The notes under the pieces were generated by a model. It saw only the letters and a program-made list of their open reading frames with translations, ran no database searches and was not told the DNA's origin. The position numbers and the translations under genes were made by a program. This document shows positions 6,973 to 52,518 of a stretch of 64,000 nucleotides of DNA, in pieces (the first letter of the stretch is position 1; each line of letters starts with the position of its first letter). This DNA is from Bifidobacterium vansinderenii. GTDB lineage: Bacteria > Actinomycetota > Actinomycetes > Actinomycetales > Bifidobacteriaceae. The stretch spans positions 1 to 64,000 of the forward strand of contig NZ_NEWD01000020.1 of NCBI RefSeq assembly GCF_002234915.1, in the 5' to 3' direction.

Positions 6973-9900
6973 ATGACCAAAGCGCTGCTGCTCGATTTCT
7001 GGCGGGAGATCCGCCATTCGGCGAACAGGTTCTTCTCGATCCTGCTGATCGTCGCCATCGGCGTGGGCTTCTTCGCGGGCCTCAAGTCCGCCGCGCCCGA
7101 CATGAAGCACACGATGGACGGCTACTTCGACCAGTCCAACATCGAGGACATCAACGTGATGTCCACGCTGGGACTGACCGACAAGGACATCAACGCCATC
7201 CGCAAGACCGAAGGCGTTCAGGCTGTCCAGCCCGGCCACTTCACCGACGCGCTCACCAAGGAGAACGGAAGCCAGCTCGTCTTCCGCATCCATGGTCTGC
7301 CCACCGGAACCAGCACCATCAACAAGGTGACCCTGGTCAGCGGACGCATGCCCACCAAGGCCAACGAGATCGTGATCGAGGACAGCGCCAACTACGGCCG
7401 GAGCCTCAAGGTGGGCGACAAGCTCACGTTCACGTCCGGCACATCCAAGAAGCTCACCGACGGCACGCTGTCCACCGACACGTTCACCATCGTGGGCCGT
7501 GCCATCACGCCGTACTATCTGACGGTCGAAAAGGGCACGTCGCAGATCGCGGGCAAGTCGATCAACCTGTTCGCCTACATACCCGACGACACGTTCACGG
7601 TGAAAGACGACAACGGCAACCCGATCTACACTCAGGCGTCCGTGACCGTCAAGGGCGCCCGGGAACTCAACGCCTTCGACTCCAAATACGACAAGCTCGT
7701 GGGCAAGACCGAGGACTCGCTGAACAACATCGGCTCCGACCGTGCCCGCGAGCGCGGCAACGAGGTGCGCAACGCCGCCCAGCAGAAGCTGCAGGAGTCG
7801 CAGGACGAATACAACAAGAAGAAGGCCGAGTACGATCAGCAGATCGCCGACGCACAGAACAAGCTCGACGATGCGAACGCCCAGCTGGCGAGTGGCGACG
7901 CGAAGCTCGACGGTTCCAAGGAGAACTATCAGCTGAAGAAGGAGAACGCGCAGCTGCAGATCCAGAACGGCCAGCAGCAGCTCGACTCCGCCAAACAGCA
8001 GATCGAATCCGGTCAGGCGCAGGTGGATGCCGGCCAGCAGGCGTATGACAGCCTCAAGCAGCAGTACGACAGTCTGAACCAGCAGATGGGCCAGGCCACG
8101 GCCATGACCCAGTGGATGCAGCAGCAGATGGATTCCATGAGCGGCAATCTCAAGGATCTCAACGATCAGATGTCGAAGCTGCCGCCGGATCAGCAGCAGC
8201 AGATGAAGCCGATCATCGACTCGTATCAGAAGATGTATGATCAGCTCTCTCAGCAGAAGTCCGCGCTTGATCAGACCACCAAGGGCGTGCAGCAGCTGCA
8301 GGGCTCGGTGCAGGGCGCGTTCGACTCGGCGGCGGCCCAGCTGCAGGAGGGCAAGGATCAGCTCGCCCAGGCGCAGCAGGAGTACCAGCAGGGTCAGGCG
8401 AAGCTGGAGGCTGCCAAGAAGCAGCTCGCCCAGGCGGATGCGAACGCGAGCAAGCAGTTCGCTGATGCGAAGGCCAAGCTCGATCAGGGCAAGTCCGAAT
8501 ATCAGAAGAGCAAGGCCGACTTCGAGACGCAGAAGGATGACGGCGCGCAGCAGCTCGACGACGCGAAGGAGAAGCTGATCGCCGCCAAGTACCGCATCGA
8601 CACCCTCAACAATCCGAAGTGGTATGTGCTCGACCGCAATGCGAACGCCGGTTTCGTGAGCTACAAGAACACGGTGGATCGTGTGAACGCGATCTCGCAG
8701 ATCATCCCCGTGTTCTTCATTCTGGTGGCCGTGCTGGTGTGCATGACCACGATGGCCCGCATGGTCAGCGAGCAGCGCGGCGTGATCGGCACGTACAAGG
8801 CGCTCGGCTACGAGAACAACGCGATCGCCATGAAGTACGTGCTGTACGTGGTGGCGGCGAGCGCGGTCGGCGGCATCATCGGCGCGATCGTGGGCGCGTG
8901 GACGTTCCCCGAATCGGTGTACAAGGCGTGGGCGGCCATGTATCGCCAGCCGCCGCTGGTGCACGGGTTCCATCCGCTCATCATCCTCACGAGCCTGCTG
9001 ATCACGGTGGGCGCCATGGCGCTGGTGTCGTATCTCACCTGCCGCAAGGAGCTCAACAGCCAGGCGGCCACGCTGATGCGTCCGAAGGCGCCGAAGATCG
9101 GCAAGCGCATTCTGCTCGAACGCATTCCCGCCATCTGGAAGCTTCTCAACTTCTCGCAGAAGGTGACGGTGCGCAACCTGTTCCGTTACAAGCGTCGTCT
9201 GATCATGACGATCGTGGGCATCATGGGCTGTACGGGTCTGCTGGTCGCCGGCCTGGGCATGAACGATACGATCGGTTCGGTCGTGGCCAAGCAGTACGGC
9301 AAGGTGTTCGCCTATGACATGTCGGTGTCGATCGACCAGACGGCGACCGATGCGCAGGTGTCGGCCATCTACGATGCGCTCGACGGCAACGGCGCGGTCA
9401 AGTCGTACACCCGTGCCGGCGTGGGCAGCGTCAGCATCAGCAACGGCGGGGACGACGAGACCCTGGCGCTGTATGCGGTCAACAAGCCCGACTCGTTCGC
9501 CGACTACATCCGTCTTGACGATCCGTCGACCGGCAAGACGATCCATCTGACCGACGATGGCATCGTGCTGACGCAGAAGCTGGCCAAGAATCTCGGCGTG
9601 ACCACGGGCGACACCGTGGCCGTACGTGATCCCGGCGGCATGACCAAGCGCATTCCGGTCACCGGCGTCACCGAGAACTATGTGTTCCACTACGCGTACA
9701 TGAGTCAGAAGTCGTATGCCAAGTACTTCCTCGAACAGCTGCCGCCGAACACGCTGCTCATCAAGTTCAACGACAAGGCGACCGCACGGCAGGAGAGCAA
9801 CCTGACGAAGGCGTTGCAGAACAGCGCCGGCGTGACGTCGGTGACGTCGTACACGAAGGTGGCCGACGAGTTCCGCGATCAGATCAAGGCGATGAACAGC

Positions 9901-23104: not shown

Positions 23105-24511
23105 TCAAGCCTTGGCTGTGGCGATCATGGGCGAAGGCGAGGCGGCGGGGGAGTTGGCCACGAGAGCCACGTCGCGCTTCTCCTCCTGCTCGCGCTCGGC
23201 CTGCTCCTGCTCCTCCATGAGAGCGTCGCCGAGAGTCTTCGCGCCGGGGATGCGGTGGCCCTTCTCGTCGAAGCCGGGCTGATGCGGGTGCAGGGTTAGG
23301 GTGAGCAGGAACGCCACCACGTACAGTGCTGCGTACGTCCAGCAGATGCCCTCGATGCCAACGGCCGGCAGCAGCAGCGTTGCGATGCCGGGGCCGACGA
23401 ACGTGGTCAGGCCGGCGGCCAGATTGTAGGCGGAGAGTGCGGCGCCCTGCTTGTCGGGCGCCTCAAGCGTCATGATGGTCGGCAGGCAGGAGAACGCGCA
23501 GGTGCCGATGCCCACCACGATCGAGGCGATGATCATCATCAGCGCGTTCGGGCCGAACCAGCGCGGCATGTAGTAGAAGAGCACGGAGCCCACGGCCAGC
23601 ACGCCGCAGCCGAACCAGCGCATCGGCCAGACCCAGCCGAAGCGGTCCATGAACCAGCCCCAGAAGGTGTTGAAGATCAGCGTGACGACGAACACGAAGC
23701 CCCAGATGCGCATCCACTCCTCGGTCTTGAAGATGTTGATGCCTCCGTACTTCGTGGTGCACAGATACAGCGGCATGATGACCGGGAAGCCATACAGCAG
23801 CAGGTTGTTGATGATGCGGATAATCGCGCAGATGGCGATCTTGCGGTTGGTGAACAGGATGGTGGCGCCGTCGGTGAGCTCCTTGAGCTGTTCCCTGCGG
23901 CTCAGCCCCTCGCCTTTGACGACCTTGTTCTTCGGTACGCAGAAGAAGCACATGATCGTGCCGACGATCGAGAACGGCAGTGCGAACCAGAACGTCTTGT
24001 ACTCGCCGAAGTGCGGCATGATGAAGCTCGGCAGGTAGGCGCCGAACACGCCGATGCCCAGCGAGAAGCAGGTCCAGAAGAAACCGGTGGCGCTGGCCAG
24101 GCGGGCGGGGGTGATGTACTGGGCCATGAGCACTACGAAGCTGTAGATGAACAGCGGGTAGCCAATGCCGCGCACCGCGTATACGGCGAGGATGAACGGA
24201 TAGATGCCGCTGGGCAGTGCGACGGCGAGGAAGACCAGATGCACGCCGATCCACCAACAGGCGCCGAACATCATGACGCGACGGGCGCCGAACATTTCGG
24301 CGAGAACGCCTGCCGTCCAGCCGCCGAGCGCGGCGAACAGTCCGTAGACGGTGACCAGGCCGGACGCCTGTGCGGCGGTGAAGCCTTGGTCGACCATGTA
24401 CTTCGACAGGAAGGTGAGCTCGAAGCCGTCGCCGGTCATGAAGATGGCCACGGCGAGGAATCCCAGCAGCAGCGTGCGCGGGATGCCGAATTTCTCAATC
24501 ATCTTGAGCAT
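23105..24511 (-). CDS. second MFS polyol permease
   Basis: A 468-residue major-facilitator protein, a paralogue of the permease at 19066-20406: GDGFELTFLSKYMVDQGF is nearly identical and the helix pattern matches over the full length. AAGAGAG five bases upstream supports the ATG at 24511 over the in-frame start at 24535. The C-terminal cytoplasmic tail is Glu/Gln-rich. It lies on the opposite strand to its paralogue. The second dehydrogenase gene (25085-26098) lies upstream in the same direction but is separated by about 570 bases of repeats. A different sugar alcohol is plausible for this pair. Confidence 0.85.
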   Translation of the reverse strand: MLKMIEKFGIPRTLLLGFLAVAIFMTGDGFELTFLSKYMVDQGFTAAQASGLVTVYGLFAALGGWTAGVLAEMFGARRVMMFGACWWIGVHLVFLAVALPSGIYPFILAVYAVRGIGYPLFIYSFVVLMAQYITPARLASATGFFWTCFSLGIGVFGAYLPSFIMPHFGEYKTFWFALPFSIVGTIMCFFCVPKNKVVKGEGLSRREQLKELTDGATILFTNRKIAICAIIRIINNLLLYGFPVIMPLYLCTTKYGGINIFKTEEWMRIWGFVFVVTLIFNTFWGWFMDRFGWVWPMRWFGCGVLAVGSVLFYYMPRWFGPNALMMIIASIVVGIGTCAFSCLPTIMTLEAPDKQGAALSAYNLAAGLTTFVGPGIATLLLPAVGIEGICWTYAALYVVAFLLTLTLHPHQPGFDEKGHRIPGAKTLGDALMEEQEQAEREQEEKRDVALVANSPAASPSPMIATAKA

Positions 24512-24565
24512 GATGTCTCTCTTACATAAGTCCAATTTCCCGCATCATCGCGGAACGAATATTGT

Positions 24566-24613
24566 CCTTCCCCTTGAGGGGAAGGTGGCACGCGAAGCGT
24601 GACGGATGAGGTG
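24566..24613. repeat. dispersed hairpin repeat, family A
   Basis: CCTTCCCC-TTGA-GGGGAAGG stem, a small ACGC/GCGT stem and a GATGAGGTG end. The same modules recur at 26637-26682, 30705-30824, 35876-36101 and 52471-52518, always outside genes. Confidence 0.85.
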
Positions 24614-24672
24614 AAGCGCGCTGAAGCACCGAAAGGATCCGCATCCTTGTAGCTTCTCCCGCTGCGCGGGCC

Positions 24673-24776
24673 GGCGTGTGGGGTTCGACACACTCGGGCC
24701 GTTTGGCCTCGCTCCGGCGATGTGATCGCGAAGCGTATCACATCGCCTCCGCTGATACAGTCGACCCCCACACGCC
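24673..24776 (-). repeat. nested-hairpin element, family C copy 1
   Basis: An outer 17-bp stem (24673-24689 with 24760-24776, one mismatch) encloses a 14-bp stem (24716-24729 with 24733-24747) with a single bulged base and a GAA/TTC loop. It also encloses a short GGCC...GGCC stem. On the minus strand its unpaired segments (CAGCGGAGG, CCGGAGCGAGGCC, GAGTGT) are the same as in copy 2 although both main stems differ in sequence. Confidence 0.85.
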
Positions 24777-24932
24777 GCCCCACTCCGCTAGACCCCGAGT
24801 CTCTTGATCGAGTACTTCCCGGTTAGTTCGAAAGAGAACGCCCGAAATCCATCCGGTTCTATTGCCCAGATAGAGGCCATTCCCCGACCGAAGGACCTTA
24901 TGCCCTCGAGGTCAAGTATTCGCTCAACCTGA

Positions 24933-25060
24933 GCGGAGGGGAGGGGCATGCGTTTTGCGAGCGTAGGCAGCGGAGGGATTTGTTATGCTTCGCAAACAAA
25001 TCCCGGAGCGAGGCCGAACGGCCTTGAGTGTCTCGCGAAACGCATGCCCCTCCCCTCCGC
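24933..25060 (+). repeat. nested-hairpin element, family C copy 2
   Basis: The outer stem 24933-24961 pairs with 25032-25060 (28 of 29). The inner stem 24975-24984 plus 24986-24988 pairs with 24992-25004 around a TTC loop with a bulged A. A GGCCGAACGGCC mini-hairpin follows. It is the inverted counterpart of copy 1, with compensatory base changes in the stems. Between the copies (24777-24932) I see no gene. Confidence 0.85.
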
Positions 25061-25084: not shown

Positions 25085-26098
25085 TTACTTGCCGACCTTG
25101 CCGACCTTCACCACGGCCTTGGACACCCCACTGATCCTGCCGTCGAGGAAGTCCTGCACCTGTTCGAGCTCGAGCTCGTGGCTGATCAGACCGCCGATGT
25201 TCATCTTGCCGGTGGAGACGAGGGCGATGGCGTCCTTGAAGGTGAGCGGGTTGATGAAGGAGCCCTGGATGGTCAGCTGCTTCTTGTAGATGTCGTAGGT
25301 GTTCATCTCGAAGTGGGCCTCCTGCGGTCCGACGCCGAACATGAGCACCTGGGCTCCCTTCTTGGTGGCGGCCACGGCCTGGGCCTGGGTGGCGGGCAGG
25401 CCGACGGCTTCGATGACCACGTCGTAGGCGTCGGCGGGGATCTGCTCGCGGGTGGTGTTGAACGTCTCGGTGACGCCGAACTGCTCCTTGTTGCGGGCCA
25501 GTTTGTCGTCGAAGATGCCGGCGAGGTCCACCTGGTGCACGCCGTAGGCCTGGAGCAGCTGGGCGAAGATCTGTCCCATGAAGCCGTCGCCGATCACGAG
25601 GGCCTTCTGGTAGGGGTGCAGGTCGAGCAGGTCGAGGCCGTGCACGCCGCAGGAGACGGGCTCGATGGCGGCGGCGTCGCGCAGGCTGACGTTGTCGGGC
25701 AGCTTGTAGACCACGGAGGCCGGGGCGGTGAACTGTTCGGCGAGGCCGCCGTCACGGGTCACGCCGACGGCGCTGAGGTGGTCGCACAGTTCGGGACGCT
25801 GGGTGAGGCAGAACTCGCACTGGCCGCAGTAGATGTTCGGGTCGACGGCTACGCGGTCGCCGGGCTTGACGTTGGTGACTTCGGCGCCGATGGCTTCGAC
25901 GATGCCGGAGTTCTCGTGGCCGAGCACGATCGGCGGAACGGCGGCGGCGGAACCGGGGCGGCCGGCGTACAGGTCGTGGTCGGTGCCGCACACACCGGCG
26001 TATGCGGTGTTGATGAGCACTTCGTTCGGTGCGATTTCGGGGGTGGGGAGGTTCTGGATTTCGAACTGCTTGACACCGGTGAGAACGAGAGCCTTCAT
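25085..26098 (-). CDS. zinc-dependent alcohol/polyol dehydrogenase
   Basis: A 337-residue medium-chain dehydrogenase. Catalytic zinc residues lie in GVCGTDHDLY and GHENSG. Unlike its neighbour at 20508, it keeps the structural-zinc cluster, CGQCEFCLTQRPELC. The NAD segment is VIGDGFMGQIFAQLL. The start at 26098 is fixed by AGAAAGG; an upstream extension to 26206 has no ribosome site. It probably oxidises the sugar alcohol imported by the permease at 23105, although a role on an unrelated secondary alcohol cannot be excluded. Confidence 0.85.
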   Translation of the reverse strand: MKALVLTGVKQFEIQNLPTPEIAPNEVLINTAYAGVCGTDHDLYAGRPGSAAAVPPIVLGHENSGIVEAIGAEVTNVKPGDRVAVDPNIYCGQCEFCLTQRPELCDHLSAVGVTRDGGLAEQFTAPASVVYKLPDNVSLRDAAAIEPVSCGVHGLDLLDLHPYQKALVIGDGFMGQIFAQLLQAYGVHQVDLAGIFDDKLARNKEQFGVTETFNTTREQIPADAYDVVIEAVGLPATQAQAVAATKKGAQVLMFGVGPQEAHFEMNTYDIYKKQLTIQGSFINPLTFKDAIALVSTGKMNIGGLISHELELEQVQDFLDGRISGVSKAVVKVGKVGK

Positions 26099-26245
26099 GA
26101 TAAATGCCTTTCTGTTGTTCCTCGCGTTTGCGCCCGCGGGAGGGCGTTGGCTTCTATGCCGTGATCGGGTGAATGATGACCATATGGTCGGAGTCCGTGG
26201 ATTCATGGGTTGGCTTGTGATCGGGTATGAATCGGGGACTGTGCT

Positions 26246-26636: not shown

Positions 26637-26682
26637 CACCTCATCCGTCGGCTTCGCCGACACCTTCCCCTCGAGGGGAAGG
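26637..26682. repeat. dispersed hairpin repeat, family A
   Basis: CACCTCATCC, then GTCGGC-TTC-GCCGAC and CCTTCCCC-TCGA-GGGGAAGG stems. This is the 5' half-unit of the family. The rest of 26409-26861 holds no gene that I can support; ACATATATATAGG near 26830-26844 is a likely -10 region for the ABC gene. Confidence 0.85.
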
Positions 26683-30704: not shown

Positions 30705-30824
30705 GGTCGGGCACCTCATCCGTCAGCCTACGGCTGCCACCTTCCCCTCAAGGGGAAGGAGTACTACGTCGGCTTCCCCTCGAGGGGAAGCTGTCGGCGA
30801 AGCCGACTGATGAGGTGCCCGACC
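30705..30824. repeat. complete two-armed family-A repeat
   Basis: Perfect 16-bp terminal inverted repeats (GGTCGGGCACCTCATC at 30705-30720 and its complement at 30809-30824) enclose two CCTTCCCC/GGGGAAGG-type stems and two GTCGGC-type stems. It is the most complete copy and shows the unit to be a mirror-image pair of half-elements. Confidence 0.85.
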
Positions 30825-35829: not shown

Positions 35830-36147
35830 GCCTGCGGCCGATACTGTGTTTTCTTCCCGCTGCCGCGGGAATTCCCACCTCATCCGTCGGCTTCGCCGAC
35901 ACCTTCCCCTCAAGGGGAAGGCGGCATCACGGCGGATAGTTCTATCAGGTCATACGTTGCCTTCCCCTCAGGCTGAGGCCGTAAAGCAAACGCCGGAGGC
36001 GTTTGTAGGGCTCAGACGAGCCGACAGGCGAGTGAGAAACGCCGGACGAAGTCCGTCAATTCTTGCCGAAGAAGGTGTCGGCGAAGCCGACGGATGAGGT
36101 GACGCTTTCCGAGACATCGGAAAGAAGATGCAGTATCGGCCGCAGGC
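35830..36147. repeat. composite repeat between convergent kinase and regulator genes
   Basis: 17-bp perfect inverted repeats (35830-35846 and 36131-36147) enclose a family-A pair: CACCTCATCC... at 35876 and GGATGAGGTG ending at 36101. A further GCAAACGCC/GGCGTTTG stem lies inside. The left arm is itself a hairpin, GTATCGGCC-TGC-GGCCGATAC. It fills the 395-base gap; no gene is present. Confidence 0.8.
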
Positions 36148-52470: not shown

Positions 52471-52518
52471 CGGCTTCCCCTTGAAGGGAAGCTGTCGGCG
52501 CAGCCGACTGATGAGGTG
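52471..52518. repeat. half-unit of dispersed family-A repeat
   Basis: GGCTTCCCC-TTGA-AGGGAAGC stem, GTCGGC/GCCGAC stem and a GATGAGGTG end. It marks the boundary between the housekeeping genes and the caspase island. Confidence 0.85.

Follow-up and report, generated by a model that had tools for sequence, protein, structure and literature searches.

A family of structured interspersed repeats with a conserved head on a stem of nearly free sequence in Bifidobacterium

The intergenic pair and its counterparts in related species

The window analysed here is a stretch of 64,000 nucleotides of Bifidobacterium vansinderenii (genome G000, 3.1 Mb). In the intergenic gap between a dehydrogenase gene and a transporter gene it contains two long hairpin elements, copies A and B, which lie in divergent orientation 144 nt apart (Table 1). 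Between copy B and the dehydrogenase stop codon there are 24 nt. An earlier note on this DNA, made from the sequence alone, placed an inverted pair of nested hairpins at 24673–25060; both copies are present, though copy A starts 12 nt earlier, at 24661.

Table 1. Coordinates of the two elements, their parts and the flanking genes in the window
Feature	Position	Strand	Basis
Flanking gene, RbtT/DalT/CsbX-type MFS transporter	23105–24535	-	TIGR00897, 468 bits
Copy A, long (A-type) element	24661–24788	-	Model R1 match 24663–24786 (copy A is one of the sequences used to build R1)
Copy A 3' outer arm	24661–24689	-	Inverted repeat I2
Copy A GGAGCGA, GGCC-AAAC-GGCC mini-hairpin, CGAGTGT	24690–24715	-	Invariant blocks; loop-to-3'-strand covariation
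Copy A inner hairpin: 11 bp, bulged A, 3 bp, TTC loop	24716–24747	-	Fold
Copy A unpaired strand TGTATCAGCGGA	24748–24759	-	Near-invariant in A2
Copy A 5' outer arm, 29 nt	24760–24788	-	Inverted repeat I2
Spacer between divergent elements A and B, 144 nt	24789–24932		Divergent layout typical of the family
Copy B, long (B-type) element	24933–25060	+	R1, 104.8 bits; site also occupied in compared relatives
Copy B 5' outer arm	24933–24961	+	Inverted repeat I1, 97%
Copy B unpaired strand CGTAGGCAGCGGA	24962–24974	+	Conserved in orthologs
Copy B inner hairpin	24975–25004	+	Replaced by a different hairpin in the B. callimiconis ortholog
Copy B GGAGCGA, GGCC-GAAC-GGCC mini-hairpin, TTGAGTGT	25005–25031	+	Invariant blocks
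Copy B 3' outer arm	25032–25060	+	Inverted repeat I1
Flanking gene, zinc-dependent alcohol/polyol dehydrogenase family	25085–26206	-	NCBIfam matches, all below equivalog cut-offs

Each copy has the same order of parts: an outer arm, an unpaired strand ending in CAGCGGA, an inner hairpin, GGAGCGA, a GGCC-N4-GGCC mini-hairpin and GAGTGT, followed by the second arm. The blocks that the earlier note described as shared (CAGCGGA, GGAGCGAGGCC and GAGTGT) are found in both copies, and so are the mini-hairpin, the apical loop of 3 nt and the one bulged A that it reported. The head is conserved between A and B, while their 29-bp outer stems are unrelated to each other in sequence and yet pair, as had also been noted – the arms are 83% complementary over 29 nt in copy A and 97% in copy B. 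Folding was much more stable than that of dinucleotide shuffles on both strands (z −6.7 to −11.6). A search of the window with Rfam 15 gave no matches; the long hairpin produced only sub-threshold hits to microRNAs.

The window also carries a second repeat, the palindrome CCCCTTGAGGGGAAGG, with 11 matches on the two strands at up to 2 mismatches against 0.07 expected. These include 24566–24585, 26663–26682, 30740–30791, 35902–35921 and 52477–52492; one match sits between copy A and the transporter gene.

All six relatives compared have an element corresponding to copy B at the site of the A/B pair, in rearranged form in two of them (G002 and G004). In the Bifidobacterium callimiconis ortholog (G001) the outer stem is approximately the same as in B. 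vansinderenii, and the inner hairpin is different. The inner, or extra, hairpin is optional within the family, and its exchange can leave the outer stem in place. No counterpart of copy A was found at this site in B. callimiconis, B. tissieri (G008) or G006, and the aligned sites in the relatives have diverged too far to provide a clean empty site for comparison of target-site duplications.

At loci L118 and L120, one element in G004 is fused at the mini-hairpin to the 3' half of another, and B. primatium (G005) has a second element with a ca. 90-nt insertion inside the mini-hairpin. In G002 (L119), several different hairpin repeats have accumulated successively in the same intergenic region.

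Distribution and structure of the family

Seven copies were found in the B. vansinderenii genome with a pattern of the shared blocks, and more in its relatives; model R1 gave 10 matches in the same genome. A covariance model of the A-type had matches in 69 of 189 Bifidobacteriaceae genomes, and these led to a short form of ca. 83 nt, whose outer stem is of the same kind and whose head, GACCGTAGGCTTGGCCGAACGGCCTTGAGTGTGTC, lacks the inner hairpin. The short-form model matched in 81 of the 189 genomes and in none of 394 other genomes of the class. Covariance-model searches of the kind that the earlier note had proposed as a check returned many further copies across the Bifidobacteriaceae with stems still paired, and not the lack of copies and decay of stems that the note had set against its own reading. 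Because MAFFT shifted A-type against B-type heads, the models were built from sets of equal length (short form ca. 83 nt, long form ca. 124 nt); the elements themselves range from 83 to 128 nt.

Copies were counted by model and pattern searches of genome assemblies, and the counts are approximate, as in a few cases the model matched both strands of one element. Eight deeply scored genomes had 8–42 matches each, G109 had 28 and G094 had 66, or roughly 8 to 66 copies per genome in the ten counted more deeply. A strict head pattern occurred up to 51 times per genome, and the reversed control pattern matched in no genome. G003 (L076) is the sole genome of the window's genus without elements, and the sole one there with a Y1 transposase. 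The A/B pair is a member of an old family of interspersed structured elements that spans the genus Bifidobacterium. The open literature yielded no description of a bifidobacterial intergenic repeat or structured RNA of this kind, and the family is apparently undescribed.

The basic head is 35–36 nt long and consists of CGTAGGCTT, a GGCC-GAAC-GGCC mini-hairpin and TTGAGTGT. It is carried on a rod of ca. 28–29 bp that is nearly fixed in length and nearly free in sequence; long forms have one additional, exchangeable hairpin in the head. The helix still includes pairs 28 and 29, and its end is frequently an A-G mismatch.

The pairing is maintained through extensive sequence change. Changes on both sides were seen at 25 of 45 pairs in 11 close A-type copies, at 39 of 45 pairs in 59 long copies (97% of cells paired in each set) and at 25 of 31 pairs in 19 short copies; within the A-type inner hairpin they affected 6 of 14 pairs. 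None of 500 shuffles reached the values observed for the A-type and long sets, which strongly supports the selection for structure proposed in the earlier note. The p-values here and below are indicative only, as the copies are related by descent and the p-values overstate their independence. In the 175 distinct copies together, 95% of the outer-stem cells (4497 of 4725) were Watson-Crick, with arms unrelated between loci.

The remaining mismatches are not symmetrical between the strands. Read on the strand of the head, the outer stems of the 175 copies have 106 G-T against 29 A-C mismatches, and 75 elements have more G-T while 16 have more A-C. On the opposite strand the excess is reversed, which indicates that one particular strand is kept paired. 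On this sequence evidence, selection keeps that strand folded, as RNA or as single-stranded DNA. The earlier note had offered a structured RNA or a cruciform-forming mobile element; RNA or one DNA strand fits the bias, which disfavours a two-stranded cruciform.

A base in the mini-hairpin loop covaries with a base of the 3' strand: the two are A-T in 102 copies, G-C in 72 and A-C in 1, so that 174 of 175 copies could pair. Since the two bases switch together and each head type includes copies in either state, a tertiary pair between the loop and the 3' strand is likely from the alignment.

Neighbouring elements have a marked preference for the arrangement seen in the window – 33 of 35 close neighbours are divergent, with spacers of 34–410 nt. 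The 58 element sites lie between tandem (38), convergent (16) and divergent (4) genes, whereas 58 gene pairs without an element in these loci gave 37, 8 and 13; the shortage between divergent genes (4/58 vs 13/58) gave a p value of 0.03. The nearest stop codon is often 15–55 nt away, although individual distances may be off because genes were called with a simple ORF script. Between convergent genes, the hairpin frequently fills most of the gap. Taken with the covariation, this placement suggests selection on the folded shape in the vicinity of gene ends.

Several species have elements in shared intergenic slots (rpsA-folD, terC-uvrB, phnW-phnX and the dehydrogenase-transporter gap of the window), which suggests old positions and not recent spread. 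At terC-uvrB and rpsA-folD, a divergent pair is found in some species and one member only in others; the single members would fit loss from an ancestral pair. Within G094, the arms of paralogs have a mean identity of 44%, and nearly all best matches are at or below 17 of 21, so there are no clear recent duplicates of whole elements.

Comparison with known interspersed repeats

The REP, BIME and REPIN elements of the GTAG and CGTC families are palindromes of 20–50 nt with a GTAG or CGTC tag, and the GTAG family is associated with a RAYT transposase (PMC3733652, PMC8266576, PMC3116915). The Bifidobacterium elements resemble them in being intergenic, multicopy hairpins that frequently occur as closely spaced units of opposite orientation and for the most part follow coding regions, in gaps between tandem or convergent genes. 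They differ in having 83–128 nt with a structured head. They also lack a constant tag: before pair 28, the 175 copies have CGAG (27), GGAG (24), TGAG (13), AGAG (10) or GTAG (5), among others. Unlike RAYT-linked REPs, most carrier genomes have no Y1 transposase.

BOX elements of Streptococcus pneumoniae have end modules that form a structure and an optional inner module; they are interspersed, and are predicted to act as RNA when co-transcribed (PMC3049150). The Bifidobacterium elements are similarly modular, with outer arms and an optional inner module (the short and long heads, and the swapped inner hairpin in B. callimiconis). By description, BOX elements have modules of conserved sequence and differ in how many boxB they carry, whereas the outer arms here are nearly free in sequence; divergent doublets also predominate in the Bifidobacterium family, unlike in BOX.

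Correia/NEMIS elements and other MITEs are likewise short, intergenic and able to fold through their inverted repeats, but MITE ends are shared between copies, while the Bifidobacterium arms differ from locus to locus, as in G094. The attC sites of integrons, which also fold with conserved unpaired bases, were considered as a further candidate. ERIC is a 127-bp imperfect palindrome of enterobacteria, intergenic and conserved in sequence. Compared by description, the Bifidobacterium elements are of similar length and are also intergenic palindromes, but only their structure and head are conserved. In sum, these are a new family of structured interspersed repeats, with a layout like that of REP/BIME/REPIN and a modularity like that of BOX, and they differ from REPs in size, tag and transposase and from MITEs in lacking shared ends.

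Possible function and alternative explanations

It is somewhat better than an even chance that the family consists of REP/BIME/BOX-like structured elements that are read through in transcripts and act at gene ends. The element would act as RNA, transcribed by read-through and not from a promoter of its own. At a divergent pair, a transcript entering from either side would run first through a complement hairpin and next through an element in the correct orientation, so that the pair could serve as a two-way 3'-end or intercistronic device. The head is likely a recognition site. It would bind a host factor that helps to form, process or protect the RNA 3' end, which would also insulate neighbouring genes from read-through; this step of host-factor binding with its consequences is a guess, in which we have limited confidence. 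More doubtful still is a new functional class of structured RNA, with the head presented on a double-stranded RNA rod of fixed length and recognised across the genome by a dedicated Bifidobacterium factor at gene 3' ends, and the swappable hairpins serving as specificity modules.

The main rival reading, which we consider unlikely, is a non-autonomous mobile repeat of REPIN or MITE type with a single-stranded, strand-specific intermediate and an enzyme that is lost or yet to be found. The selection on one strand would also fit a single-stranded DNA intermediate; the structure would be kept for transposition, and the position after genes would be insertion tolerance. The divergent doublets (a feature of REPINs), the depletion between divergent genes and excess between convergent genes, the failure to find copy A at the site in three relatives, the near-identical A-type cores at several loci and the swap of the inner hairpin are all consistent with mobility, which the earlier note had also suggested. 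Against it, the arms of paralogs are unrelated, with no clear recent whole-element duplicates, and slots are common to many species. The Y1 transposase (PF01797) is found in 11 of the 189 Bifidobacteriaceae genomes and in 5 of the 81 carriers; it was not found in the other 76, and a REP transposase was rejected as the mobiliser because hardly any carriers have one. Viral contigs and plasmid collections gave no copies, and a phage or plasmid origin was rejected, as the lone hit in a phage collection resembles a fragment of a bacterial chromosome. This record, L256 (MT837054.1, 1–9190, 'UNVERIFIED Bacteriophage sp.' from human faeces), encodes two proteins that were named by eye, a long membrane protein resembling MurJ and one resembling thioredoxin reductase; a short element (9065–9147, 93.9 bits) follows these two genes.

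Template switching during DNA synthesis is known to create and maintain hairpins (PMC8794818), and the paired arms could be a by-product of arm-to-arm copying in long inverted repeats, without structural selection. It could quickly produce double changes, and may have supplied them. As a full explanation it is improbable: it does not account for the G-T bias of one strand, the invariant head with its tertiary covariation or the near-constant stem length.

It is at least as improbable that the elements are individual small-RNA genes, each driven by a promoter of its own, with a promoter region shared within divergent pairs. The strict divergent pairing and the strand bias would fit, but some spacers are just 34–45 nt, and promoter-like scoring found no enrichment upstream of elements (mean 2.65, vs 2.30 on the mirror side and 2.85 in shuffles), and the idea was rejected on this basis. 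A classical intrinsic terminator is least probable and was rejected, since the strong hairpin past stop codons and the filled convergent gaps come with no U-tract (in the 12 nt downstream, mean T is 1.3 for the + form and 3.5 for the complement, with at least 6 T in 0 and 9 of 175 copies) and with a conserved head that termination does not require. By hand count, single copies in tandem context near a stop codon oppose the upstream gene in ca. 12 cases and follow it in 3, which does not fit a simple terminator for that gene.

If the elements do act in read-through transcripts at gene ends, they bear on a little-described aspect of a major group of gut bacteria, the post-transcriptional control of bifidobacteria. 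A dispersed set of roughly 8 to 66 elements in each genome, subject to strand-specific selection and adjoining genes such as rpsA, uvrB and sufC-sufS, would amount to an extensive layer that genome annotation lacks. The family is also a natural case for weighing template switching against selection in the upkeep of long RNA stems, and a clean one, because the arms are free in sequence while their length and the head are fixed.
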